Below are positions 1,577 to 16,000 of a DNA stretch of 22,405 nucleotides, piece by piece; the stretch's first letter is position 1; every line of letters starts with the position of its first letter. Origin of the DNA: a virus; the IMG/VR virus record IMGVR_UViG_3300025146_000074, positions 1 to 22,405 of that record; one strand, given 5' to 3'. The notes under the pieces are model-generated. The model was not told the DNA's origin. It worked only from the letters and a program-made list of their open reading frames with translations, and did no database searches. A program made the position numbers and the translations under genes.

Positions 1577-2092
1577 ATGTTACCAGAGGATTTGGTCAGA
1601 GTTAAGGTGATTGGAAAGTACCACCGTCCAGGGCGTGGGGCGGGGCTATATTCTTTGGGGGAGATCCTCGTCGTCACCAGAAAGCAAGCTCAGGCGGGGC
1701 AGGGGGTGTTGATCGAGGAGAATGAGCCTATTCCCGCTTCCCCGCCCAAGGAGACGCAGAGGTATGAAAAGTTCTTCCCCCCCAAGGCCAAAAAAGAGGA
1801 ACGGGGAGAGGAACAGGGAGAGGAACGGGAGGACGAATCTCATCTCAAATCCTCTGAAATTCCAGGTTCTCCGCCTCCTTTGCCGGAGACTTCTGTGGAG
1901 GAGGACCTCAGACCTACCGTGTTGTTAAGAAGGGAATCCGTAGAGGGGCGGGGGGTGAGGTACATCAAGGAGGATGGAAGCCCCGCCCACATCGGGCGTC
2001 TGGGAACGAAGCAAGAGGAAGAAGCCGTCATAAAGACCCAGACCAGAAAGGCCAATGAGGCCGGGTTCAGGTTGGAAGTAGTTGATTCCTAG
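1577..2092 (+). CDS. Unknown virion-associated protein with N-terminal beta module and charged linker
   Basis: A 171-residue protein not recognised as a named family. Residues 6-47 form a compact module: VRVKVIGKY, a PGRGAG turn, then GEILVVTRKQAQAG. This looks like the small SH3-like phage module of the type 'I-R-V-K-V..G-x..P-G....G-(E/D)-V-x-x-V-T'. A similar module opens the GT8-like enzyme at 3061. Residues 50-110 are low complexity, Pro- and Glu/Lys-rich, including three 4-residue repeats (EERG/EEQG/EERE), and are surely disordered. Residues 125-171 form a second short ordered region (RYIKEDGSPAHIGRLG, then a helix). Position between the capsid and adaptor genes, and the leader shared with the capsid gene, suggest a head-associated protein, perhaps a head fibre or decoration tether. 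That role is inference. Confidence 0.7.
   Translation: MLPEDLVRVKVIGKYHRPGRGAGLYSLGEILVVTRKQAQAGQGVLIEENEPIPASPPKETQRYEKFFPPKAKKEERGEEQGEEREDESHLKSSEIPGSPPPLPETSVEEDLRPTVLLRRESVEGRGVRYIKEDGSPAHIGRLGTKQEEEAVIKTQTRKANEAGFRLEVVDS
1796..1831 (+). repeat. Three tandem 12-bp repeats within coding sequence
   Basis: GAGGAACGGGGA, GAGGAACAGGGA and GAGGAACGGGAG follow each other without a gap and encode EERG-EEQG-EERE in the disordered linker. The copies differ by one or two bases, as expected from replication slippage that tunes linker length. Confidence 0.8.
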
Positions 2093-2100
2093 GGGGTGCC

Positions 2101-2460
2101 ATGGCTAGGGTCACTTCCATCGAAGTCAAGGAAATCATCTCCACGGACATCGCGGACCTTACCGCGTACATAACGGCGGCGAATCTGTTGGTGACGGAGG
2201 TGCTGGGAGGCCTCCTTTCGGATGCTCTCCTCAAAGAGATAGAGCGTTGGCTCTCCGCCCACCTCATCGCCAGCGGCGGGGAGGAAGGGGCGCGGATTGA
2301 AGAGGAACGCATCTTTGAGGCGTACGCGGCGAGATACGGGGGGAAGTTTGGCTTCGGATTGTCGGGCTCCAGGTATGGCCAACAAGTGGCCATCCTTGAC
2401 ACGACGGGCAGAATGGTCTCTCAAGGGACCGTCAAGCCCGCCGTATTCAGGATGATGTAA
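2101..2460 (+). CDS. Head-tail adaptor / connector protein (gp6-like)
   Basis: A 119-residue, mostly helical protein. The N-terminal half has short helices (IADLTAYITAANLLVTEVL), then the helix IERWLSAHLIASG. The C-terminal part ends in SGSRYGQQVAILDTTGRM and KPAVFRMM. The 'Y-(L/A)-(T/S)-A-H' helix followed by 'S-x-R-Y-G-Q-Q-x-x-x-L-D-x-T-G' is a pattern I associate with phage head-tail connector proteins that dock under the portal ring and extend the DNA channel. Length fits the family (about 100-130). The start has a G-rich ribosome site four bases upstream. The stop TAA shares its last base with the ATG of the next gene, coupling the sugar cassette to this virion gene. Confidence 0.75.
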   Translation: MARVTSIEVKEIISTDIADLTAYITAANLLVTEVLGGLLSDALLKEIERWLSAHLIASGGEEGARIEEERIFEAYAARYGGKFGFGLSGSRYGQQVAILDTTGRMVSQGTVKPAVFRMM

Positions 2461-3077
2461 TGAATCGTACCGTTGAGAGGGTCTGGGGCCGTAATGACGT
2501 AGCATATGTGCTGGCTTCTGGGCCCTCTCATGGTCTCATAGATTTAGATTTGTTACGTGGACGTAAGGTGGTGATTACGAACAACATGGTGTTTAAAACG
2601 CCTTGGGCCCCGATTTTATGCGTCCGTGACAAATTGTGGTGGAAGGAGTACCAAGGCCGCCCTGAGTTTCAAAGTTTCGAGGGTGAGGTCATCACGGTAG
2701 TCCCTAATCATTTCCATAAAAATCTCACGTTTTTGAATTATGGGGGAAGTGATGGCCTCAGCCGGGACAGGTACACCGTCTACGGGTTAAACTGCGGCCA
2801 AATGGCCATGAACGTCGTATTCCTAAAGGGGGCGGGCACTATAATTCTGATAGGTTTTGATATGCGGAAGGTGAACGATTTGGATCATGGGTGTGAACCA
2901 CATAAGAGGCCCGTCAAGGAAGAAAATTATAGTAGGTTCATAAGAAACATGGCTGTGATGGCATCGGAATTGCGCGACGAGGGTATAGAAGTCCTCAATG
3001 CTACACCGGGTAGCGCTCTTCCTTATTTCCCAATAATTTCCATGGAGGAGGCCCTTCGTCGTGGCAGACTTAATTAG
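2460..3077 (+). CDS. DUF115/Maf-like putative sugar transferase
   Basis: A 205-residue cytoplasmic protein with a Rossmann-like layout. An N-terminal strand and loop VLASGPS (17-23) is followed by VVITNN (37-42), a central NCGQMAMNVVFLKGAGTIILIGFDM (111-135, strand-helix-strand) and a C-terminal LNATPGSALPYFPI (179-192). This order matches the DUF115 (MptE-like/Maf) superfamily, common in phages. Some members are linked to transfer of acidic sugars to flagellin; others are pterin pyrophosphokinases. A sugar-transfer role fits the neighbours, but the donor and acceptor are unknown. Its ATG overlaps the adaptor stop codon (TAATG) and its 3' end overlaps the next gene by 17 bases. Base composition is clearly more A/T-rich than the capsid gene. 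A non-catalytic sugar-binding role cannot be excluded. Confidence 0.65.
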   Translation: MNRTVERVWGRNDVAYVLASGPSHGLIDLDLLRGRKVVITNNMVFKTPWAPILCVRDKLWWKEYQGRPEFQSFEGEVITVVPNHFHKNLTFLNYGGSDGLSRDRYTVYGLNCGQMAMNVVFLKGAGTIILIGFDMRKVNDLDHGCEPHKRPVKEENYSRFIRNMAVMASELRDEGIEVLNATPGSALPYFPIISMEEALRRGRLN

Positions 3078-4047
3078 GTGCGTAGTTAGGGGAAAGATGA
3101 ACCTTCCGGGAGGCGGGAGGGTTCCAGAGGGGGAAGTAATTGAGGTAACCCTTCATCAATATAAGAATTTTAGGGACGCTCTTGAGATCGTGAAAGACCC
3201 TCCCCCCCTTCCGATATTGAGGAATAATCCTCCAATGTCTCGATTCGAACCTCGCACAAAGGAAGGGCCCGAAATTCAAGGACTAATAAGTTTGGAATGG
3301 ACGGGGCCCGTCACGGTGGCGTGCGTGCTTAGGCCGTCTAAGGATTTTTCAGTGAATGTGGTGGAATTACTGTACCGTCAGTGTAGACGGTGGCTGTCAA
3401 GAATGGGTAGGTTCGTTTGTCTTACGGAAGAATCCGAGATGATGTTTAGCCCTGGTATAGAAGTGGTGCCTCTTCTACACCCTGAGTGGGCCACAAAACA
3501 TTCTAAACTCGAACTTTTTCGCCCCGAATTGTTGGAGGATTGGGGCCGAGTGTTGTACATGGATTTGGATACGATACTGTGCGGAGATTTAAACCCATTG
3601 GTGTCGTATGCCGGTAGGTTCGCGATGTTGATAGACGTAAACTTCCCCGACAACCCCGGCTCCGGTGTGATGTTATGGGGCCCGGATCGCAGGATGTCAG
3701 AAATATATTATGACTTTTTACGGATGCCTCCTGGGGAGCAAATAAGAAAATACCCCATCGGGGGCGGGCGTGGTGACCAGTTGTTCATACGCAATCACAC
3801 CCCGTACGCACCCCATTACATACAGGATTTTTTCTCGGGGGCGGTTTCCTTCAAGAAGCATTTCCGAGGAGAGGACGCCCCACCGGATATGCCCCTCTCG
3901 ATGGTATATTTTCATGGGAGGCCGAAGCCTTTTGAAGCGGCCATGAAGTATAAACAGTATCGTAACATATTTGAGCCATGGCTTAAGGAATATTGTGAGT
4001 TAGATGAGGAAATCAAGTCTGTTTGGCCCTATAGGGAGGAGGAATGA
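3061..4047 (+). CDS. GT8-like glycosyltransferase with N-terminal docking module
   Basis: A 328-residue protein in three parts. Residues 4-45 are a small beta module (IRCVVRGKM, PGGG turn, PEGEVIEVTLHQY) resembling residues 7-47 of the protein at 1577. Residues 46-78 are a Pro-rich linker. Residues 80-315 are a GT-A fold transferase: TVACVLRPS at the first strand, VLYMDLDTILCGDL (164-177) with the metal-binding DxD at 168-170, GRGDQLFIR (236-244), and YFHGRPKPF (283-291), the GT8-type C-terminal 'H-x-G-x-x-K-P'. These enzymes are retaining and use a nucleotide sugar with a divalent metal. The GTG start at 3061 follows GGAGGAGG (3044-3051). Members are usually known from lipopolysaccharide or glycogenin-type reactions. 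Here the donor might be UDP-sulfoquinovose made by the gene at 5268. The acceptor is unknown. Confidence 0.8.
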   Translation: MADLIRCVVRGKMNLPGGGRVPEGEVIEVTLHQYKNFRDALEIVKDPPPLPILRNNPPMSRFEPRTKEGPEIQGLISLEWTGPVTVACVLRPSKDFSVNVVELLYRQCRRWLSRMGRFVCLTEESEMMFSPGIEVVPLLHPEWATKHSKLELFRPELLEDWGRVLYMDLDTILCGDLNPLVSYAGRFAMLIDVNFPDNPGSGVMLWGPDRRMSEIYYDFLRMPPGEQIRKYPIGGGRGDQLFIRNHTPYAPHYIQDFFSGAVSFKKHFRGEDAPPDMPLSMVYFHGRPKPFEAAMKYKQYRNIFEPWLKEYCELDEEIKSVWPYREEE

Positions 4048-4622
4048 TGCATCTATACCCTCATGGCCGTGTTCCCAACAACCACCCGCAAGTGATACAG
4101 TTCTGCGTAGAAGCGAATGGGTGGATCAGAGGGGTGGAGGTGGGCTTGGGGCGGGGACAGAACATGTCGCACCTCATGTCCACATGTCCACACCTTCACA
4201 TGATAGGGGTAGACGTGTTTAGACACATGCCAGAGGCTCCCGGGGAGGAAGCTTATAGGGCCATGAACCACGAGGGAAACAGAAAGCGTTTGCGTACCCT
4301 GGAAAAGGCCTTTTCCGAGAGGTTCAGGGTTCTCGAAATGACTTCTCGGGAGGCCTCCTTCCGGGTGGAAGAGGAGAGCGCCGATTTCGTTTTCATAGAT
4401 GCGGACCATTCCACGGAGGGGTGCCTAGAAGATATTGGACTGTGGGCCCCAAAAGTAAAAATAGGCGGGTGGATTCTTGGACATGACTATAACCGCTTTG
4501 GGATTAACGAGGCGGTTAATAAAGCGTTTGGTGGATTTCCGGACGTCGATTATCAAGTTCTTCCATATTCGGTATGGGCGAAGAGGAAAGAGGTTTCCGA
4601 TGTGGTTCGTACCTACGCGTAA
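4044..4622 (+). CDS. Class I SAM-dependent methyltransferase
   Basis: A 192-residue protein with the Rossmann methyltransferase motifs in order: motif I VEVGLGRGQN (31-40), acidic post-I residue in IGVDVF (Asp57), FVFIDADHSTEG (115-126) as the strand-4 acidic motif, and KIGGWILGHDY (139-149) after strand 5. This layout is that of Methyltransf_24/TylF/rhamnosyl O-methyltransferase-type enzymes, many of which methylate sugars. In this context an O-methyl cap on a glycan is the simplest reading; a protein or small-molecule substrate is possible. The ATG overlaps the preceding TGA by four bases and follows GGGAGGAGG. The 3' end overlaps the next gene by 23 bases. Confidence 0.8.
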   Translation: MMHLYPHGRVPNNHPQVIQFCVEANGWIRGVEVGLGRGQNMSHLMSTCPHLHMIGVDVFRHMPEAPGEEAYRAMNHEGNRKRLRTLEKAFSERFRVLEMTSREASFRVEEESADFVFIDADHSTEGCLEDIGLWAPKVKIGGWILGHDYNRFGINEAVNKAFGGFPDVDYQVLPYSVWAKRKEVSDVVRTYA

Positions 4623-5271
4623 CAGGCCGGAAAGGCTGCAGAGGTTCCTCGACGGTTGCATCGCCACCGGAATGATCATGCCCGGTCTCATAGTAGTGGA
4701 CGGCGAGGACGGCGGCGATTACTCGAGCGTTAAATTGCCGCTTAATTGGAAAATTGAAACAGCTTCCGTACGGATTGACGCGGGAGGAAGGCAAGAGTGC
4801 TATTTTAGGTCTTACCCCGACGCTAAGTTCTACAGCATCGTGAATGATGACGTGGTACCAGAAACCCCTAAATGGGACGTGGAACTGGCTCTAGAGGCCG
4901 GAGATTGGAACGTAGCTTATCCTTGGGACACGTTGAGTGAAATGGCGACCCAATTTCTGGTAGGTGGGAAGTTATGCCACGCCGTGGGGTCTTTTTCACT
5001 TGGCTTCATGCACACCATGGTGGACCGGGCGTGGATGGATATAGGGGCCGCCCTAGGAAGGTTGAAATTCCGCAAAGATATTCGTCTCCGTCATGAACAT
5101 TGGAGCAGAGGGCTCGCACCGAGAGACGCCACGTATAAGCGGGAGTTAAATGGGGTCTCGACTATCGCTCATGATCGCGCCCGGTACGCGGCATGGAAGA
5201 CAGAAGAATTCCCTGCGCTTATCGCGCATCTGAAAACCGTTGTCCCATTTTCTCTTGGAGCCCCCACATGA
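4600..5271 (+). CDS. GT2-like (GT-A fold) glycosyltransferase
   Basis: The frame is open further upstream, but the ATG at 4600 is chosen because it follows AGAGGAAAGAGG (4582-4593) and opens directly into the first strand of the fold, FVPTRNRPERLQRFL. The 223-residue product has the GT-A order: VPTRNRP (4-10) for nucleotide binding, LIVVDGEDGGDY (30-41), FYSIVNDDVVPETP (77-90) with the metal-binding acidic pair at 83-84, and WMDIGAALGRL (145-155). A late LRHEHWSRGLAPRDATY (163-179) resembles a conserved phage glycosyltransferase family in which 'H-x-H' precedes 'D-x-T-Y'. It is shorter than typical GT2 enzymes and has no membrane segment, so it should be cytoplasmic. Donor and acceptor are unknown. 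It ends in ATGA overlap with the UDP-sulfoquinovose synthase gene. Confidence 0.75.
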   Translation: MWFVPTRNRPERLQRFLDGCIATGMIMPGLIVVDGEDGGDYSSVKLPLNWKIETASVRIDAGGRQECYFRSYPDAKFYSIVNDDVVPETPKWDVELALEAGDWNVAYPWDTLSEMATQFLVGGKLCHAVGSFSLGFMHTMVDRAWMDIGAALGRLKFRKDIRLRHEHWSRGLAPRDATYKRELNGVSTIAHDRARYAAWKTEEFPALIAHLKTVVPFSLGAPT

Positions 5272-6464
5272 AAATCCTTGTCCTCGGAGCCGATGGATAT
5301 CTTGGCTGGCCTACGTGCCTTCATTTTTCTATAAGAGGACATGAAGTCCACGCTCTAGATAGTTGCGTGAAGCGTAGGCTTCTATTTGATTTGGGTAGGA
5401 ATACCTTAGTACACGTGCATGGGTTTCAGGACCGTATATCGGCATGGACCAGTATGACGAAAAAGAAAATCGAGGGATGGGAATGTAGTTTGATAGGAAG
5501 CTATGCTCGGTTGTCCAAGATTCTTCATACCATACGTCCGGACGTAATAGTTCACTACGCTGAACAACCTTCTGCTCCCTTCTCTATGATGAATGCGGCT
5601 TCCGCCGTGTACACTCAGGAGAACAACGTTTTGGGGACACTGAACTTAATGTTCGCGGTTAAGGAAGAATGTCCGGAGGCTCACATCATAAAATTGGGGA
5701 CCATGGGGGAATATGGAACCCCAGGTATAGTAATTGAGGAGGGGTGGTTAAACATAACCCACAGAGGGAAGACCGCAAGGGTTTTATACCCTAAGAGTCC
5801 AGGCAGTTTTTACCATGCGTCAAAGATACACGACTCTACGAATTTAGAATTTGGATGTAGGGCGTGGGGCCTAAGGGTGTCTGATTTGAATCAGGGGGTG
5901 GTGTATGGGTTTAGTACCCCCGAGACTGAAAAACACTCTTATTTAGGGACAATGTTGTATTATGACGACATTTTTGGGACAGTGTTGAACCGGTTTATCC
6001 ACCAAGCGGCTGTTGGCCACCCCTTGACGGTGTATGGGAGAGGAGGCCAGACGAGAGGTTTTATAAACATAATCGACACCATGAAGTGTGTAGAAATAGC
6101 GGCTCTCAATCCTGCCGATCCTGGAGAGTTTAGGGTGTTTAATCAATTTACAGAAACGTATTCTGTATCGGCTCTCGCAGGGGTGGTGGAGAAAGCCGCT
6201 ACCGCTCTCGGAATGGAAGTTAAGAGAGAAAACATTGAAAATCCGAGGGTGGAGGCGGAATCCCATTACTACGACGCCGTGAACAGTGGTCTAAAGGCTC
6301 TTGGCCACCGTCCGACTAGACTGACTATCGACATGGTAAAGGAAATGCTACGCGTAACGGTGGAAAACAAAGGTAGAATAGACACGAAGGCTATACGTCC
6401 TTCCGTGAAGTGGAGAGAAAAAGGCTGGGAGGACCCTTGTGCCGTGGCTCCTTCTGTGTTATAA
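5268..6464 (+). CDS. sqd1: UDP-sulfoquinovose synthase
   Basis: A 398-residue NAD-dependent short-chain dehydrogenase-type enzyme that makes UDP-6-sulfoquinovose from UDP-glucose and sulfite. It is recognised from near-identical family blocks: LVLGADGYLGWPT (NAD-binding GxxGxxG, 4-16), QPSAPFSMM (100-108), AVYTQENNVLGTLN (113-126), KLGTMGEYGTP (142-152), FYHASKIHDS (181-190), LNQGVVYG (207-214), GHPLTVYGRGGQTRGF (250-265), GEFRVFNQFTE (286-296) and NPRVEAESHYY (325-335). The catalytic Thr145 and the Tyr182-x-x-x-Lys186 pair are present; as I recall, these are also the residue numbers in Arabidopsis SQD1. It is full length without a plastid transit peptide. The ATG at 5268 overlaps the previous stop (ATGA), with GGAG seven bases upstream; an in-frame extension from 5193 would overlap the GT2 gene and is rejected. 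The family normally serves sulfolipid synthesis in phototrophs and some other bacteria. Finding it inside a phage structural operon is unusual. Confidence 0.95.
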   Translation: MKILVLGADGYLGWPTCLHFSIRGHEVHALDSCVKRRLLFDLGRNTLVHVHGFQDRISAWTSMTKKKIEGWECSLIGSYARLSKILHTIRPDVIVHYAEQPSAPFSMMNAASAVYTQENNVLGTLNLMFAVKEECPEAHIIKLGTMGEYGTPGIVIEEGWLNITHRGKTARVLYPKSPGSFYHASKIHDSTNLEFGCRAWGLRVSDLNQGVVYGFSTPETEKHSYLGTMLYYDDIFGTVLNRFIHQAAVGHPLTVYGRGGQTRGFINIIDTMKCVEIAALNPADPGEFRVFNQFTETYSVSALAGVVEKAATALGMEVKRENIENPRVEAESHYYDAVNSGLKALGHRPTRLTIDMVKEMLRVTVENKGRIDTKAIRPSVKWREKGWEDPCAVAPSVL

Positions 6465-6485
6465 TGGAGGGTAGTGCCCCATAGC

Positions 6486-6491
6486 GGGAGG
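6486..6491 (+). promoter_or_regulatory. Ribosome binding site deciding the 6498 start
   Basis: GGGAGG ends six bases before GTG 6498. The competing GTG at 6474 has its GGAGGG too close for good initiation, which favours the shorter protein. Confidence 0.55.
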
Positions 6492-6497
6492 CTTAAG

Positions 6498-6875
6498 GTG
6501 TCCATAGCCAGCAGGATAGCCTCAAGGATTTCTGCCCGCTCTCAAAAAATAGGGAAAACCGTTACCATTCGCAGAGTGGTGCAGAACTATGTAGTCGCTA
6601 CGGGGAAGACCTCGGTGGTCAGTACGACGGATATTTCTGGTAAGGCGATGATAACCACGAAATCCAAAAGTAACCCTTCTGGAATGAATCCGGAGGAGAC
6701 TCTTCGGTTCTTTCTTCCCAAGCACACGTCCATCACCTTCGATCCGGCGGTTGGAGATATTGTGGTTATTGGGACGGACATGTCCGTGGGGCCTTTTTAT
6801 CGGATCGTGAGGTCCATCCCCAAGAACGTAGGAGAGGACAATTACGGTTTCCTCATCCTCTGTGGTAACGTGTGA
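6498..6875 (+). CDS. Probable head-closure (stopper) protein
   Basis: A 125-residue protein from the GTG at 6498, which has GGGAGG (6486-6491) at ideal spacing. An alternative GTG at 6474 adds eight residues but sits only two or three bases after its GGAGGG. The N-terminus is Ser/Arg-rich (SIASRIASRISARSQKIG). The rest is beta-rich, with TVTIRRVVQNYVV, a disordered Lys/Ser stretch, and VGDIVVIGTDMSVGPFYRIVRSI near the end. That last segment resembles the 'G-D-x-I-x-x-x-G-x-x-Y-x-I' barrel of phage head-closure proteins. Position between the adaptor (now separated by the cassette) and the HK97-gp10-like gene is where a stopper normally lies. Assignment is mainly by gene order. Confidence 0.55.
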   Translation: MSIASRIASRISARSQKIGKTVTIRRVVQNYVVATGKTSVVSTTDISGKAMITTKSKSNPSGMNPEETLRFFLPKHTSITFDPAVGDIVVIGTDMSVGPFYRIVRSIPKNVGEDNYGFLILCGNV

Positions 6876-7585
6876 TGATTAAGCCGCGTGGAGCCATTGG
6901 TGGTAATGAAGTTTATGGGTGGGATTTCGTGGGGAAAACCACCGGTATGATTATTGACCCTATATCAGGTACGGCGGGAGAGGTAACTTCTCTAGGCCGA
7001 AGATTTATCCCCGGACACACTGAGACCCCGGTGATACGGACGCTGGTTAAAAATAAATTTCCGGGGGGAGGTGCCCATACCTCCATAAACAGAGTATTTA
7101 TAGGAACATCCGTGGGTATTCAGCCCCGCCCGGGTCAGCAGGTGTTGATGTCGGGAGACGTGCCAGGATTTCTGGCTTCCGATTGGCAAGGACTCCTCGA
7201 AAAAATGATGAAAAGAATTGAGCAAGATGTCATGGATCGAGTTCTGTACGCCACCCAGACCGCACTTAAGGTGGTGTTTGAAACTTCCCCTATGAACACG
7301 GGGTACTATAAATACAATCATCGTGCGGCATTGAACAATACTGATGTGGGACTGGACCCGTCCCAAAAACCGGATAAGAAAATTCCGGTTCCTTCGAGTT
7401 CCGAGTTGATTGCGCGAGAGATGGGGGCCATCGAAGGGGCGGAGTTAGGGGAGGAAATAGTTTTAGGGACAGCTGTCCCTTACTCGGATTTTGTAGAAGG
7501 GGGAGGTAAGAACACTCGGTCACACAACGTGTACAGCCTAGCAGCCTTAGCGGCCACGGTGGTGTTAAGGGAGATGTTTGAATAA
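6872..7585 (+). CDS. HK97 gp10-like neck / tail-completion protein
   Basis: A 237-residue protein. The C-terminal half carries the HK97 gp10 pattern: a long helix (about 105-140), SPMNTGYYKYNHRAALN (the family's 'S/T-P-x-x-T-G-x-L-x-x-S' block), a loop, then VPYSDFVEGGGKNTRSH (the 'Y-A-x-x-V-E-x-G' block) and a final helix. Family members join the neck to the tail during siphovirus assembly. The N-terminal hundred residues are beta-rich and longer than in typical gp10 homologues, so this is an extended version. The GTG at 6872 overlaps the previous TGA; ATG at 6875 is an equally plausible start. Confidence 0.75.
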   Translation: MMIKPRGAIGGNEVYGWDFVGKTTGMIIDPISGTAGEVTSLGRRFIPGHTETPVIRTLVKNKFPGGGAHTSINRVFIGTSVGIQPRPGQQVLMSGDVPGFLASDWQGLLEKMMKRIEQDVMDRVLYATQTALKVVFETSPMNTGYYKYNHRAALNNTDVGLDPSQKPDKKIPVPSSSELIAREMGAIEGAELGEEIVLGTAVPYSDFVEGGGKNTRSHNVYSLAALAATVVLREMFE

Positions 7586-8004
7586 TGGTCATCGCCGGGT
7601 ACGAGGAAGCTAACAACCTAATTCGGGCGGCCTTTGACTCCGGATGGTTGGATTCAAATGTACCTGTGCTGTATGATAACTTTCAGCAGGACCCGGATGC
7701 GGACGCTCCGGAGCCCCCGTTCCTGAGGGTACAGATTCAACAGGCATTGTCCAGGCAGGTGTCCATGGCCAACGATAAGAGGGTACGGAAAGATGGGCAG
7801 ATAGTAGTGGAGATCCTGGTGCCCGCTGGAGAAGGGGAGGGGCGCGCCCTTGAATTAGCGGACGATGTAGAGACGATACTCGAAACGAAGAACTTTGGCG
7901 GAGTTCAGATGGGAACGTCGAGAAAAGTAAACGTAGGGTCCGTGAAAAGCGCTTGGAAGCTAAACGTGGTCACGGATTTCTATTTTGACGTGTTCCGCAC
8001 CTAG
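7585..8004 (+). CDS. Tail terminator protein
   Basis: A 139-residue alpha/beta protein: an N-terminal helix (AGYEEANNLIRAAFDSGWLD), then PVLYDNFQQDPDADAPEPPFLRVQIQ, VRKDGQIVVEILVPAGEGEGRALELADDVETILE and a C-terminal WKLNVVTDFYFDVFR. The 'P-x-x-(Y/W)-x-N-x-x-x-x-P' start, the 'G-x-x-x-V-x-I' strand and the helix 'G-x-x-x-A-x-x-L-A-D' are hallmarks of the DUF4128/gpU-like tail terminators that cap the tail tube. Position between the gp10-like gene and the major tail protein is standard. The ATG shares the final A of the previous stop (TAATG). Confidence 0.82.
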   Translation: MVIAGYEEANNLIRAAFDSGWLDSNVPVLYDNFQQDPDADAPEPPFLRVQIQQALSRQVSMANDKRVRKDGQIVVEILVPAGEGEGRALELADDVETILETKNFGGVQMGTSRKVNVGSVKSAWKLNVVTDFYFDVFRT

Positions 8005-10067: not shown

Positions 10068-13000
10068 GTGCCGACGATTAAGATAGGCATACGGCTTCCT
10101 ACGGCGGGGATTTCCGCTGATTCTAAACTAGCACGGGATCAGCTTAGGTTAATAGCCCGCGAGGCCCAAACCACCGCCAACTCCCTGCGTAAATCCGCCG
10201 TGGGTATGTCTGACCCCATAACGAGAGTCGCGGAGGCGGCTGTGTTCGCCGCCGCTTCGTTCCGGGAGTTGAAACTGGCGGCGCAAGAACTTAAGAATAC
10301 TGGGGCGGGGACGTTCTTTAACAAGATCCTCGCGGACGCGGTACACACTCATGGTAAGATTGAAAATATAAGTAGAGCCCTAGAGCGGTCTAGAGTAGAC
10401 ATGCTACGGAACCTTGATGTGATGTTCAAGGGCCAGCTTAACCAAATAACCGAGGTCGCTAGGCAGATAAACCAGACTGCTGTTAAGACCTTTGACGCTC
10501 TCGAGAAGGTGCGGGAAAAGGAGTCTTTGGGCGGAGACCCCCTGCGCCGCAAGGGTCAGCCCGGTACGACGGCTGCGGACGTTCAACGCATGTCCTTGGA
10601 ATTGGAGGAGGAAACCGCTAGGAAAAAGGTTAGGATCAATGCGGCCAAGGACGAGGCTCTGGTTAGACAGGAACACATCACCCGGGGCGAAATAGCAAAG
10701 ATTAATAAGAGATTTACTGATGCGGAATTTAAGCTCAAGGCTTCTCTCAGGGAGGAAGACCTTAAAAGAGCTATTGAATCCAATAGGATAATAACTGAGA
10801 AGAACGTAGAGGCTGAGAAACAAAAATTAGCCTTGTCTAAGAGTAACATTGAGGCTGGCCGTTCTGCGGAGTTGGAAAGAGTCGATAGGGCGCGGATAGA
10901 GCGTCTTAAAGAGGTCGCGAAGGCGCAGAACGAACTTAACGTGGAGACGGCTAAGGAAGAGGCGCAACTTGTTACCGCCAAGGTAGCCTCGGGAGAGCTT
11001 GACAAAGCGCACACGTCCCTTGCGCGCCAAAAGATCAGGCTCACGGAGTTAGTCGCTAATGAAAAGATCACTCAGGAAGAGGCCAATAAGCAATATGAAC
11101 TAACCAAGACTAGGCTTCTATCAGTAGGCGATGCCCAGAACGCGTCGGGCAAAAAGATGGTCCGCGCCGTTAAGGACCAATCAACAGCTATTGATGAGTT
11201 TAATGTACGGGAGGCCCGGCGGGCTATACTTTTAGGACAAGGATCGGCGGCGCAATTAAAATTTGCGCAGGTTCAAAGAGACTTGAATAAGGACGTTCAC
11301 GCCGGTCTCTTGACGCAGGACGCAGCAAATGATAGAATGGTGCGGGCCAGGAAGGTGTTCTTCGGTGGAGCGGAGGCGGTAGGAGCCACGCAGAGGAGGC
11401 TCCAGGGCCTCCGTGGAGAATTAAACGAGGTTGGCCGGGTCATGAGGATCGCTTTGGGTCCCCTTTCCCGGGCAGCTTCGGCGGTTACCAACTTCGGCAT
11501 CTTGATCGAAAGTACGTCCATTAAGATGGCGGTCGCCGTTGGCGGATTCCTTTTAATGGCTTTCGGTGCGGTGAAAGCCGCGAAAGCGTATATAGAATTT
11601 GAGAAGGGGCTGGTGGGCGTCCGCAAAACCACTGATTTGTCGGCGGCGGGTATGGAGGTCCTCAGTGACAATTTTCTCAGGATGTCCACTCGCGTAAACA
11701 TTGGGGCGTCGGAATTATCGGGGATCGCACAAATAGCAGGACAGATGGGAATTAGGGGAGTGGAGGACATTGCGTCCTTTACGGAAGCCATAGCAATCCT
11801 TACCAAAACCACCTCCCTCACCGGTCCAGACGCAGCCACGAAGATCGCGCAGCTCTTATCCATCACGAATGAGGCGGCCAATACCGCCCCTCGTCTAGCC
11901 TCCGTCATAGTGGATTTGGGCAATAAATTCGCGGCAAATGAGTCCCGTATCGTTGAGTTCGGTGTAGACGTGGCGCGGGTCGGGGCAGCTTTCGGGGTCA
12001 CGGCTACGCAGTCATTGGCCATGGGTACGGCTCTGGCGCAATTGGGAGCTAATGCGGAATCAGGCTCCACCGCCGTGGGTAGGCTCTTCGCTAAGATGAA
12101 TGAGGCCATAGACGAGGGAGGCATAAGGCTGCAACAGTTCGCCGAAATAACGGACCGCAGTACCCTTCAATTTACTGAGTTGTTCAGGAAGGATGCCATG
12201 GGAGCGGTCCTTGAATTCATAAAGGGCCTTAACCTTTTACAAAAGCAGGGGGCTTCTACGGCCCAGGTGTTAAAGGACCTTGAAATCGGGGGATTTAGAG
12301 AGATTAAGTCCCTTCTTCCCTTGGCTAAGGGGTATCAGGTCGCGGCACAGGCGCAGAGGGACGCCAGTACCGCTTTCAGGGACGGCAAGAAGCACCTCAC
12401 GGAATTGGAAATCGCAAATAAGTCATTCGGCGCGTCGGTGGACTTTGTAGGGAGGAAGCTTAATGTAATCGCCGTAGAAATAGGTAGGGACCTGCTGCCC
12501 GTGATGAGGGCTCTCACTGGATCATTAAACTGGGTCCTAGACCATCAATTGGCTATAGAGACGGCTATATTAACTATAGCCACGGCTTTTGCGGCATGGG
12601 CAGCCGCCGCTAATGCAAATCCTTTCCTACGGGCCGTGAGCATCGGCGCGGCGATAATCTCCTCCATACCGGTGTTAGCCCGCTTAATGAAGGAATTAGG
12701 GGGGAAGGGGTCTCTTGAGGGCGGTAAAGCGATCATTGATGAATTAAAAATACAGCAACAGCAAATCGGGGTCGCCACTGAGCAAAACCTCGCATCCATC
12801 CAGAAGAACCTTGAGGTGGCCGTAGCCTACCGCGACAAGATAGAGGGTGTAATATCTGTACTGCAAAAGAAGATGGAGACACCGAAGATAGGGTCTTCCT
12901 TCGGAGTCACGGCTGGAGGCGGCCTCATGGTGGGGGCCGAGAGGGCTAAAATACAAAGCGAAATTAAATCTCTTCGGGGTGAAGCAGACGAGCTAGATGT

Positions 13001-16000
13001 TTTATTGGCCCAGATGCGAGTTCAAATGGAACATAGAATGTCTGGGGGCTTCGTTGAGGGGGCGCGGGAAATTACGGTTTCCACCAAGGAATTAGAAAGC
13101 GCCGTGGAGACCGTGGAGAAATTAAAGCGAGAAATGGTCTATTTTGGGGAACAGGCCGGAGTAATAACTTTCGGTGGACTAGCCTTGAAGGAGGAAGTGG
13201 ATGACCTTCGTGAGGCTAGTGAGATAATTGAGAAATTGGCTGGCGGCAGGGGGCGGTCAATACGTCAAGACGTGTTGGAGGGATTCGTTAATCGGACGGG
13301 TTTAGGGGCCAGGGCAGAGGAACGGGACCCCTTCGGCCTGGGGTTCCCTATCGATGCTGAGGAAGTCAAAAGGAACCTCGCGGCCTTGATTCAGGCCCGC
13401 CGTATGAACGAGGAGAGCATCAAGAAAGGAACGCAGCACCTTAAGGATCAGACTGAGGCTGTAAGGAAGCTAAACAAGGATCAGAACGATCTGGTCCTCA
13501 TGATGAATGCGGAAATTGCGGCCATAAATGCGGAAGTGGCGGGGCTTAACGAATCAGAGCGTGCTAAATTCATGGCGGTGGCCACCAATAAGCTTCTCGA
13601 GAAGGCCACCAAGGACGGCACCCTGGCTTATCTCGAGGAGATAGACGCGATACGGAAGGTAGGTGAGGCGGCGGGTGGGTTGTTTGATGCTAGAAAGCGT
13701 CTCGCGGAATTTAAGAAGGCGGAGGAAGAAGCCCGTCAAGCTTTGATGGAGCCCTTTTTACAAGCCATAAGGTCAATTCAGGACGCCTTTGCCGATATGT
13801 TTAAGAGCATCTTTGACGGCGGCATTAATTCCGCTAAGGACTTTTCTAGGCGGATGTTTGACATATTTAAGGGTATGGCCGCGCAGATTGCGGCGGCGCT
13901 GGTACTCCGTCCCGTCCTGGGGGGAGTGGTAGGGGCCATAGGGGTTCCGGGCCTAGCCACGGCCCTCGGGTTTCCTACTCCGCTAGGTGGCGGAGGCGGT
14001 GGCGCGGCGGGAGGCGGTGGTGCGGCGGGAGGCGGTGGCCTTTTATCTTCCTTAAGCTCTCTGGGCGGGATCCTTTCTCTCGGACAAAGCACTATTTTAC
14101 AGGGTCTGGGGACCGATTTGGGCGTTTGGTTGTCGGGTGGGGCTGGAGCCTTTGACGTGGCGGCGGGCGAGGGGGCCTCTGGATTGGCAAGTTTCCTGCC
14201 CGGGGCTTTAGGCAACGCGGGCCTCAATGCTCCTTGGGCCATCGCAGGGTCGTTAGGGGCGAATCTTTTGGGTTTAACGAAACGAAATACCTTAAGCGGG
14301 GGGATCGGAGGCGGTATAGGAGGATTGTTGGGCGGAGCCTTCCTGGGGCCGTTGGGGGCGATCGGTGGCAGCTTCCTGGGAAGCGCGGTGGGCTCTCTGT
14401 TCGGTCCCGACAGGCGCAAGGTGACGGGGGCCAAAGTAGACGCCTCTACCGAAGCCCAGGTGGTGGAACTCGCTACCGGACTCTTGCAATCCCTTGGCCT
14501 TCCCTCCGCCGGAGGCCGCGAAACTTTCGGATCATCGACGTGGATAGGCAATCTCGCCCGTAACATGGGGGAGGGGAACATACCGGGGTCCGTACAAGGG
14601 GCTTTTAATTTCGGTTTCCAGCAGATTCTTCGGGCATCCGAGGAGTTTAAGTCCCTAGGCGAAGTGATAAACCGCATCAACTTCATAGACGTGGAACAGA
14701 CCATTAAAGATGTACAATTCGCTATGGCTTTCATGGCGGAGGACTTCGCCCTAGGGAAGGAAGAGATATCAGATGCCAAGAAGGCCCTGGACGCAATAAA
14801 CGGGGCGTTTGAGGAAGCTAGGCCCGTCGTAGAACGCCTGGGGCTGAGCCTCCAAAAACTCACTGACGCACAGTCAAAGGCCATATCGAAGCTGCAAGAG
14901 GATTTCAATGAGGCCGTTAGACTTCAAATCCTGGCTCTAGAGGACCCTTTGGCCCTGGCCTTGGAGGAGCAGGAAAAGGTGGCCAAGGAGAGGCTCCGGA
15001 ATGCGGAAGATTTGGGGATCGATCTCCTGGACGTAACAAGGCTCAATGAATTAGAACGCCTTAACATAATGAAGGAAAGTAACGACAAAATCCTTGAGGA
15101 GGAGCGTAAGGCGTCGGAGGAGAGGCAGAAGCTGGTAGACGATCTTATTAAATCTATTAATGGAGCTAGAGACTCCGTTCAATCCTCCCTCATAAAGCTT
15201 ACGGGAAGCGCGGAATCTCCCCTCGGAACGCTACCTGCTCTCGCCGTGGCCCAGGGAGAGTTTCTTAAGGTAAGGGCCAGGGCATTTGCTGGCGACCCCG
15301 AGGCTATGGGGGAGTTGGGTGCGGCGGGGGAGAATCTTCTTTCATTAAGCAGGCAAGCTTTCTCTTCAACCCCAAGATTTTTCGAGGATTTTAACTACGT
15401 AATAAGTACCCTTAGAGAAGCGATCACCGCTACCGAAGCCGTGATGCCGGAGGACCCCGCCCAGAAGCTGATAACCCAGATAGAATTGCAAACGCAGGGG
15501 CTTCTCTCGGCCATAGGAGGGCAGACCGGAATAATTGAGAACAGCGCCAAGAAGCAATTTGATGAGGCTCTCAAGCAGACGGGGGCCATTAAGGACGTTT
15601 CCGGGAACGTTCTGATTTCTGCCCAAAACAATTCCGCTGGATTGCGGAGGGTGTCCACGGACGTTAGCCAAGGGTTGCTCCCCATCGAACGCAACACGGG
15701 TCTCCTTCCCGTCAAGATAGAAGACGTTGAGAAGGCCATATCTCCTCTGGCGGGAGCGATATCCGCCATGTCCACTTCAATAGCTCTTCTGGCCGCCTCC
15801 TCCGGTGGGGCCACCAGTAACACCATTTTGAATGCCCTAGTGTCCATTACCACCGCTCTTAATACTTTCTTCCCCTTCTTGTCCAACTCCCTTTTCCAGA
15901 TGACCTCGCCCGCCTTGGGGCTGCAATGGTTGGTCAACTTAGGAAATATAAGGGTACCCGCGTTCAAGGATGAGGGATCATTCAGAGTAGGGGGATATGG

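Follow-up and report, generated by a model that had tools for sequence, protein, structure and literature searches.

A candidate phage glycosylation module centred on an SQD1-family enzyme recurs among head-neck genes

Photosynthetic membranes and archaeal S-layer glycans are the main known settings of sulfoquinovose. Two phenomena that bear on its possible use by phages had already been described, namely the glycosylation of phage virions and the presence of a UDP (uridine diphosphate)-sulfoquinovose synthase gene in a virus. Virion glycosylation is established for the mycobacteriophages Che8, Corndog and Myrna, where phage-encoded glycosyltransferases modify capsid and tail proteins, and the available text of that source reports no sulfonated sugar (PMC12363180). 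A Mu-like virus from the Cariaco Basin carries a putative UDP-sulfoquinovose synthase that was treated as an auxiliary metabolic gene, without a cassette of the type considered here in the part of the source available (PMC7785012). Here, we describe five adjacent genes (A–E, positions 2460-6464) in a 22,405-base virus record from IMG/VR (IMGVR_UViG_3300025146_000074; hereafter the window), where an SQD1-family gene (E) closes a series of sugar-related genes within the head-neck gene block. We propose that A–E form a cytosolic phage glycosylation module that makes a sulfosugar, with a virion protein as the most likely acceptor, and we put the probability of this tentative reading at roughly 0.45. 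The module is a variant of known phage glycosylation cassettes.

Homologues of A and B occur in isolated phages. The late operon pmgO-pmgP-ppp-pmgQ of coliphage P1, annotated with a late promoter and putative morphogenetic functions, encodes homologues of A (PmgO, 26% identity, 2e-12) and B (PmgQ, 30%, 5e-25), but the compared P1 region, pmgN to pmgS, has no homologue of C, D or E, and the P1 operon has a phosphatase gene (ppp). In the neck block of Pseudomonas phages D3 and PMG1, an A homologue lies between capsid and adaptor, and a methyltransferase and an unknown protein follow head closure, but the 11.5-kb stretch compared holds no match to B, D or E. In the open-licence literature searched, we came across no sulfosugar module centred on D and E in a head-neck block. 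Among the open-licence matches listed, one paper concerned a viral UDP-sulfoquinovose synthase, and none a virion use of such an enzyme. A roseophage paper was discarded as a precedent, as sulfoquinovose appears in its reference list only.

The preliminary description of the window had placed five sugar-related genes between an adaptor and a stopper gene. All five are open and lie on the plus strand, and family searches support their labels. It had further tied them to virion genes, and this connection is borne out by their recurrence in other phages. A search of IMG/VR with seven D sequences yielded 12 contigs with D that represent seven phage types (four contigs are the window phage; there are six further types, with L006/L112, L213/L214 and L250/L251 each counted as one). 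E is encoded after D in 12/12 contigs, directly in six types and beyond a radical-SAM-like open reading frame (ORF) in L216. No A–D homologue was found in the flanks of the 80 cellular SQD1-family loci. B-type genes are present in all seven types and C in six. For A, the window, L112 and L216 give a clear identification, L214 a match supported by comparing profiles (4.7e-6) and L215 a borderline one (0.0016). The module sits within the head-neck block in 6/7 types (window, L112, L214, L215, L216 and L250). The podophage L214 has the order portal (phrog_332), scaffold-like ORF, capsid (phrog_3437), A-like, B, C, D, E and tail tubular proteins, which L215 repeats up to its contig end (portal phrog_332, capsid phrog_3437). 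L216 runs from protease (phrog_53) and capsid (phrog_29) through A, B, C, a sulfotransferase, D, the radical-SAM-like ORF and E to the tape measure, and L250 reads B, C, C, D, E, head closure (Hc1) and Neck1. In L112, an HK97-type capsid gene (PF05065) lies upstream of a fused A-B gene, D and E, with downstream neck genes recognized by eye only. The neighbours of the module belong to four different capsid families, in siphophage and podophage, so its recurrent position is not explained by shared descent of the head genes. If the probability of such a placement is set by hand at 0.1-0.3, at least six in seven would arise with P = 6.4e-6 to 3.8e-3, a rough guide only.

Conservation differs between D and E. 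Identity between D proteins ranges from 47 to 68% and is not parallel to that of E, as L112 combines the highest E identity (68%) with the lowest D identity (47%), and judging from these sequences E seems to be exchangeable within the module. A scan of the viral contigs with two B rows found only the window phage and the contig of L006, and the other B homologues came from local comparison. The PF05065 profile failed as a capsid marker for contigs with SQD1-family genes (over the cut-off in 2/48).

Family A taken alone shows the same attachment to virion genes. At least 555 viral stretches encode A relatives, and 80 of them were collected; 77 are not the window phage, and 40 of these were tested for position. 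A capsid gene of the PF05065 family is present in 23/40 contigs, and A lies downstream of it on the same strand in 23/23 and within 3.2 kb in 21/23, versus a mean of 3.9/23 and a maximum of 12 in 20,000 draws with uniform placement on the same contig (a simple null: contigs are fragments and strand is taken as given). The profile phrog_161 failed as a closure marker in this survey (1/40). Among the 77 loci, a B relative occurs in 17, a C relative in 8 and D in 0; isolates with A include Pseudomonas D3/PMG1-type, Caulobacter and Brevundimonas phages. In P1, pmgP (L286:3153-3779), next to pmgO, reads as another, diverged family A member (phmmer 0.031, with a GNSAYGALNLA motif seen by eye) and resembles the A-like ORFs in L214 and L215. 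The P1 virion proteome paper does not use the word stem 'glycosyl' in its main text.

The chemistry of the proposed module hinges on E (5268-6464, plus strand), an SQD1-family, UDP-sulfoquinovose-synthase-like short-chain dehydrogenase/reductase by PDB and NCBIfam matches. Residues 2-386 (385 residues) align with the solved SQD1 at 3.5e-136, and identity to Arabidopsis SQD1 is 53% across the whole enzyme. The catalytic Thr145, Tyr182 and Lys186 are present, as are their neighbours Met146, Glu148 and His183. Across the viral family, T145, M146, E148, Y182 and H183 are kept in 76/76 rows and K186 in 75/76, the remaining row having X. Family membership and these residues suggest that E would oxidize and dehydrate UDP-glucose and add sulfite to yield UDP-sulfoquinovose or a 6-sulfo sugar very close to it; in our judgement, UDP-sulfoquinovose or a close analogue is probably its product.

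Several observations weigh against the sulfosugar module. The match of E to the NCBIfam UDP-sulfoquinovose synthase model NF041015 (3e-126, 421.5 bits) falls under the curated equivalog cut-off of 575. Position 101 is Pro rather than Arg in the window and in L006, and in the available part of a study of Sulfolobus Agl3, a described relative along with Arabidopsis SQD1 and cyanobacterial SqdB, Arg101 is essential and the R101A mutant inactive (PMC4388408). The SQD1 label given earlier therefore holds for the family and the catalytic residues, and not for position 101 or the curated score. R168 and D170, kept in 81/81 and 80/81 rows of the cellular set (Arabidopsis SQD1 plus 80 loci, chosen from at least 578 as the most similar to the query), are Lys and Ala in E, which also differs from the described enzymes in its phage glycosyltransferase partners. 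No gene for sulfite production came to light in the phage, whose remaining genome was not systematically scanned. In the E tree, the window and L006 are separate from the other D-linked E rows. At the level of the module, L239 carries it away from recognized structural genes, among neighbours that by eye belong to lysis and replication. Finally, pmgO and pmgQ of P1 are dispensable for plaques, with no plaque defect in the available parts of two studies (PMC9024508, PMC10695390); this indicates that they are not assembly factors.

The residue changes raise the alternative that E, although related to SQD1, has been re-tooled and works without sulfite addition, with D transferring a 4-keto-5,6-ene, a 6-deoxy sugar or a sugar bearing another nucleophile, and we regard this as fairly unlikely. 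It draws on the inactive Agl3 mutant, on the changes at 168 and 170 and on the distribution of residue 101, which is Pro in 74/76 viral rows and in 20/81 rows of the cellular set, versus Arg in 57/81 (the residue table is not dereplicated, and L274, with a partial E, is excluded). It also draws on the gene neighbourhoods. An SqdX-like gene, identified from its position adjoining sqdB in a Calothrix relative, lies near 32/56 Arg101 cellular loci versus 0/19 Pro101 loci (Fisher 4.6e-6), which places the Pro101 enzymes outside sulfolipid operons; sulfolipid synthesis is thus not favoured for E. Against re-tooling, every other catalytic residue examined is kept, and the 92 neighbour proteins of the 19 Pro101 cellular loci include four PAPS (3′-phosphoadenosine 5′-phosphosulfate)-reductase domains and one APS (adenosine 5′-phosphosulfate) kinase, alongside NeuB (6), UDP-GlcNAc 2-epimerase (6) and cytidylyltransferase (4). 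As PAPS-reductase domains are a source of sulfite, their presence favours Pro101 enzymes that still add sulfite, for surface sugars. The neighbour sets (A9 and A11) are unrelated proteins gathered for scanning, with A9 omitting minus-strand ORFs and A11 omitting proteins of more than 900 aa.

For the sulfosugar module, the glycosyltransferases are the second element. D (4600-5271, plus strand) matches phrog_14945 (4.9e-20), and its model (mean pLDDT, predicted local distance difference test, of 86) has 132 matches among PDB chains at E <= 0.001. Those listed, with polypeptide GalNAc-transferases and chondroitin polymerase among their number, are glycosyltransferases of the GT-A fold, which supports that fold for D. 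As D has no Pfam match, the GT2 membership suggested earlier is not established. B (3061-4047, plus strand) belongs with phrog_1962 (2.3e-30) and carries a D-x-D motif (YMDLDT, read by eye); its GT8 label stands on a weak but consistent signal, the Pfam Glyco_transf_8 score of 13.3 bits lying under the cut-off of 24.3. A (2460-3077, plus strand) matches phrog_4603, a phage 'alpha-2,3-sialyltransferase' family, at 4.2e-28 over 183 residues. Its model (pLDDT 94) predicts an HPPK / GT42-sialyltransferase-type fold, with archaeal HPPK (Z 11.7, root-mean-square deviation (rmsd) 2.7, 147 aligned) and Campylobacter CstII (Z 11.3, rmsd 3.8, 177 aligned) as best structural relatives and no Foldseek E-value at 0.001 or better. 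C (4044-4622, plus strand) is a class I S-adenosylmethionine-dependent methyltransferase (Methyltransf_24, 1.5e-15). D, as the E-coupled GT-A transferase in every phage found, would transfer the sugar made by E; B and A would prime or assemble the glycan, with C as its methyltransferase. The acceptor would most likely be a virion protein from the same block, resulting in a particle with a small anionic, possibly methylated glycan.

How a transferase might reach the particle is hinted at by the N-terminus of B. Its first stretch (3061-3264) resembles the N-terminus of a small neck-region protein encoded upstream (1577-2092, plus strand; 32% over 75 aa, E 0.002). In L112, where A and B are fused, the fusion protein shares its N-terminal stretch with a separate neighbouring protein (50% over 40 aa, 4e-11), a stronger likeness than that in the window. 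A hidden Markov model of this possible tether domain, built from five small neck proteins, missed both window copies, so that pairwise matches speak for the tether and the model against it. The shared stretch, if real, could bring the transferase to the particle.

We favour a virion protein as the acceptor because the enzymes are soluble (no clear transmembrane segment was found in any of A–E), because the module keeps its virion-gene setting on unrelated backgrounds and because of the mycobacteriophage precedent, as far as the available text of that source goes (PMC12363180). The main competing acceptor is the host surface, where the same enzymes would place the glycan late in infection, leading to superinfection exclusion or keeping progeny off debris. 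Pro101 SQD1-family genes do keep company with surface-sugar genes, as seen in the NeuB and UDP-GlcNAc 2-epimerase genes at the cellular loci and in NeuB nonulosonic-acid synthase homologues among the viral neighbour proteins (8/145). Nevertheless, the cassette encodes no membrane protein, flippase, lipid-linked priming enzyme or membrane transferase, and surface modification would not require recurrent placement among head-neck genes; we therefore consider the host surface an unlikely acceptor. The viral NeuB homologues lie outside the D group (e.g. L201:1275-2069), where some viral sugar cassettes thus appear to combine nonulosonic-acid genes with SQD1-family genes.

Further removed is the idea that the block serves DNA or nucleotide modification, or is auxiliary metabolic cargo (for sulfolipid or sulfur storage) parked in a late operon. 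Support comes from a separate group of viral SQD1-family genes, as the 145 viral neighbour proteins include dCMP deaminase (14), ParB (10) and DNA methylase (8), and from the position of the module in L239. The E tree contains a virus-only clade of 39 SQD1-family rows (part of loci L217 to L275), whose function is possibly nucleotide or DNA related. The E of the window, however, falls outside this clade, D and B resemble glycosyltransferases, the cassette has no lipid transferase and six of the seven types have it in the head block, which makes such a role very unlikely. The INPHARED phage collection gave no SQD1-family match.

The five genes are tightly packed with their neighbours. Overlaps measure 1 nt between adaptor and A (TAATG), then 17 (A/B), 4 (B/C), 23 (C/D) and 4 nt (D/E), as described earlier, but the claim that every junction overlaps fails at the last one, where a 9-nt gap separates E from the next gene (6474, GTG start). 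Other neck junctions overlap as well (closure/Neck1 by 4 nt, Neck1/terminator by 1 nt). Since overlaps are common in this block, they show polycistronic packing and nothing special to the cassette. No promoter- or terminator-like site exceeded shuffled expectation between 1400 and 7700; the missing signal within the block fits shared transcription and does not thereby prove late timing. GC content at third codon positions is 0.541 in the A–E insert versus 0.625 in the remaining genes, and a sharp compositional border was rejected, as Neck1 has 0.515. Chance or artefact was likewise rejected: four further IMG/VR contigs carry the same phage with a 100% identical E protein, and the DNA of G002, G004 and G006 was compared with the window as a check on such contigs.

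The genes on either side were called adaptor and stopper in the preliminary description. Downstream, a head closure / stopper match (Hc1, 4.9e-5, modest) supports this for the gene at 6474-6875, followed by Neck1 / tail completion (6872-7585; 4.5e-4, modest) and the tail terminator (7585-8004; 1e-18). Upstream, the putative head-tail adaptor (2101-2460) is assigned by position only, its sole PHROG match being a family of unknown function (5.5e-7). The major capsid protein gene (458-1450; DUF6260 / phrog_771, a profile match) is the upstream landmark, and all these genes are on the plus strand. Homologues of the adaptor occur in L013, L015, L024 (Brevundimonas phage StAshley) and L257, where one small gene follows at -1, +12, -1 and +6 nt, respectively. 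The two genes are therefore contiguous in 4/4 relatives covering both (from capsid or SQD1 searches), consistent with an empty site; the small gene weakly matches a connector-type PHROG in one of the four (L013, 0.0045). In L257, relatives of A, B and E form part of another sugar cassette, which lies one step upstream, between capsid and adaptor. L011 and L012, with related capsids, have GT2-like ORFs (by eye) and a methyltransferase ORF beyond the presumed stopper; the L011 methyltransferase matches C (5e-9), and the one GT2-like ORF scanned (L011:12029-12742) has no PHROG match. From these differing sites, the head-neck block seems to accept sugar cassettes at several junctions.

Some related loci hold further genes of this kind. 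A sulfotransferase-domain protein is encoded inside the L216 cassette (7227-7835; PF17784, 3e-32) and, with a weak match only, in the related L257 cassette (12213-12917); a second route to sulfated glycans is possible there. L112 (reverse strand, 11709-14878) has a second sugar-type cassette upstream of a portal-like gene, with a DegT aminotransferase, a methyltransferase-like protein and a Gfo/Idh/MocA oxidoreductase. The 48,969-base contig G002, which contains the window at 100%, encodes PurZ-like, DatZ-like and PolA/DpoZ-like proteins downstream of it (L110:12043-17064), with 7odx (2e-47), 6zpa (4e-5) and 7pbk (2e-42) as best PDB matches, respectively, and the genome of the window phage may carry 2-aminoadenine (Z). 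The longer contigs yielded no tRNA.

A broader form of the proposal, which we consider possible if doubtful, is that a transferable five-gene module shared by unrelated siphophages and podophages puts a sulfoquinovose-type glycan on their particles, that D is a new sulfoquinovosyltransferase acting on a protein or protein-linked glycan, and that families A and B, with P1 PmgO and PmgQ among their members, make up a widespread, unrecognized core of virion glycosylation. If true, sulfoquinovose on viral particles would be a new use of this sugar, which would alter particle charge and recognition, and D would be a candidate sulfoquinovosyltransferase. P1 is a classic laboratory phage in which the function of PmgO and PmgQ is unknown and knock-outs exist, and this link would make particle glycosylation by common phages directly testable.

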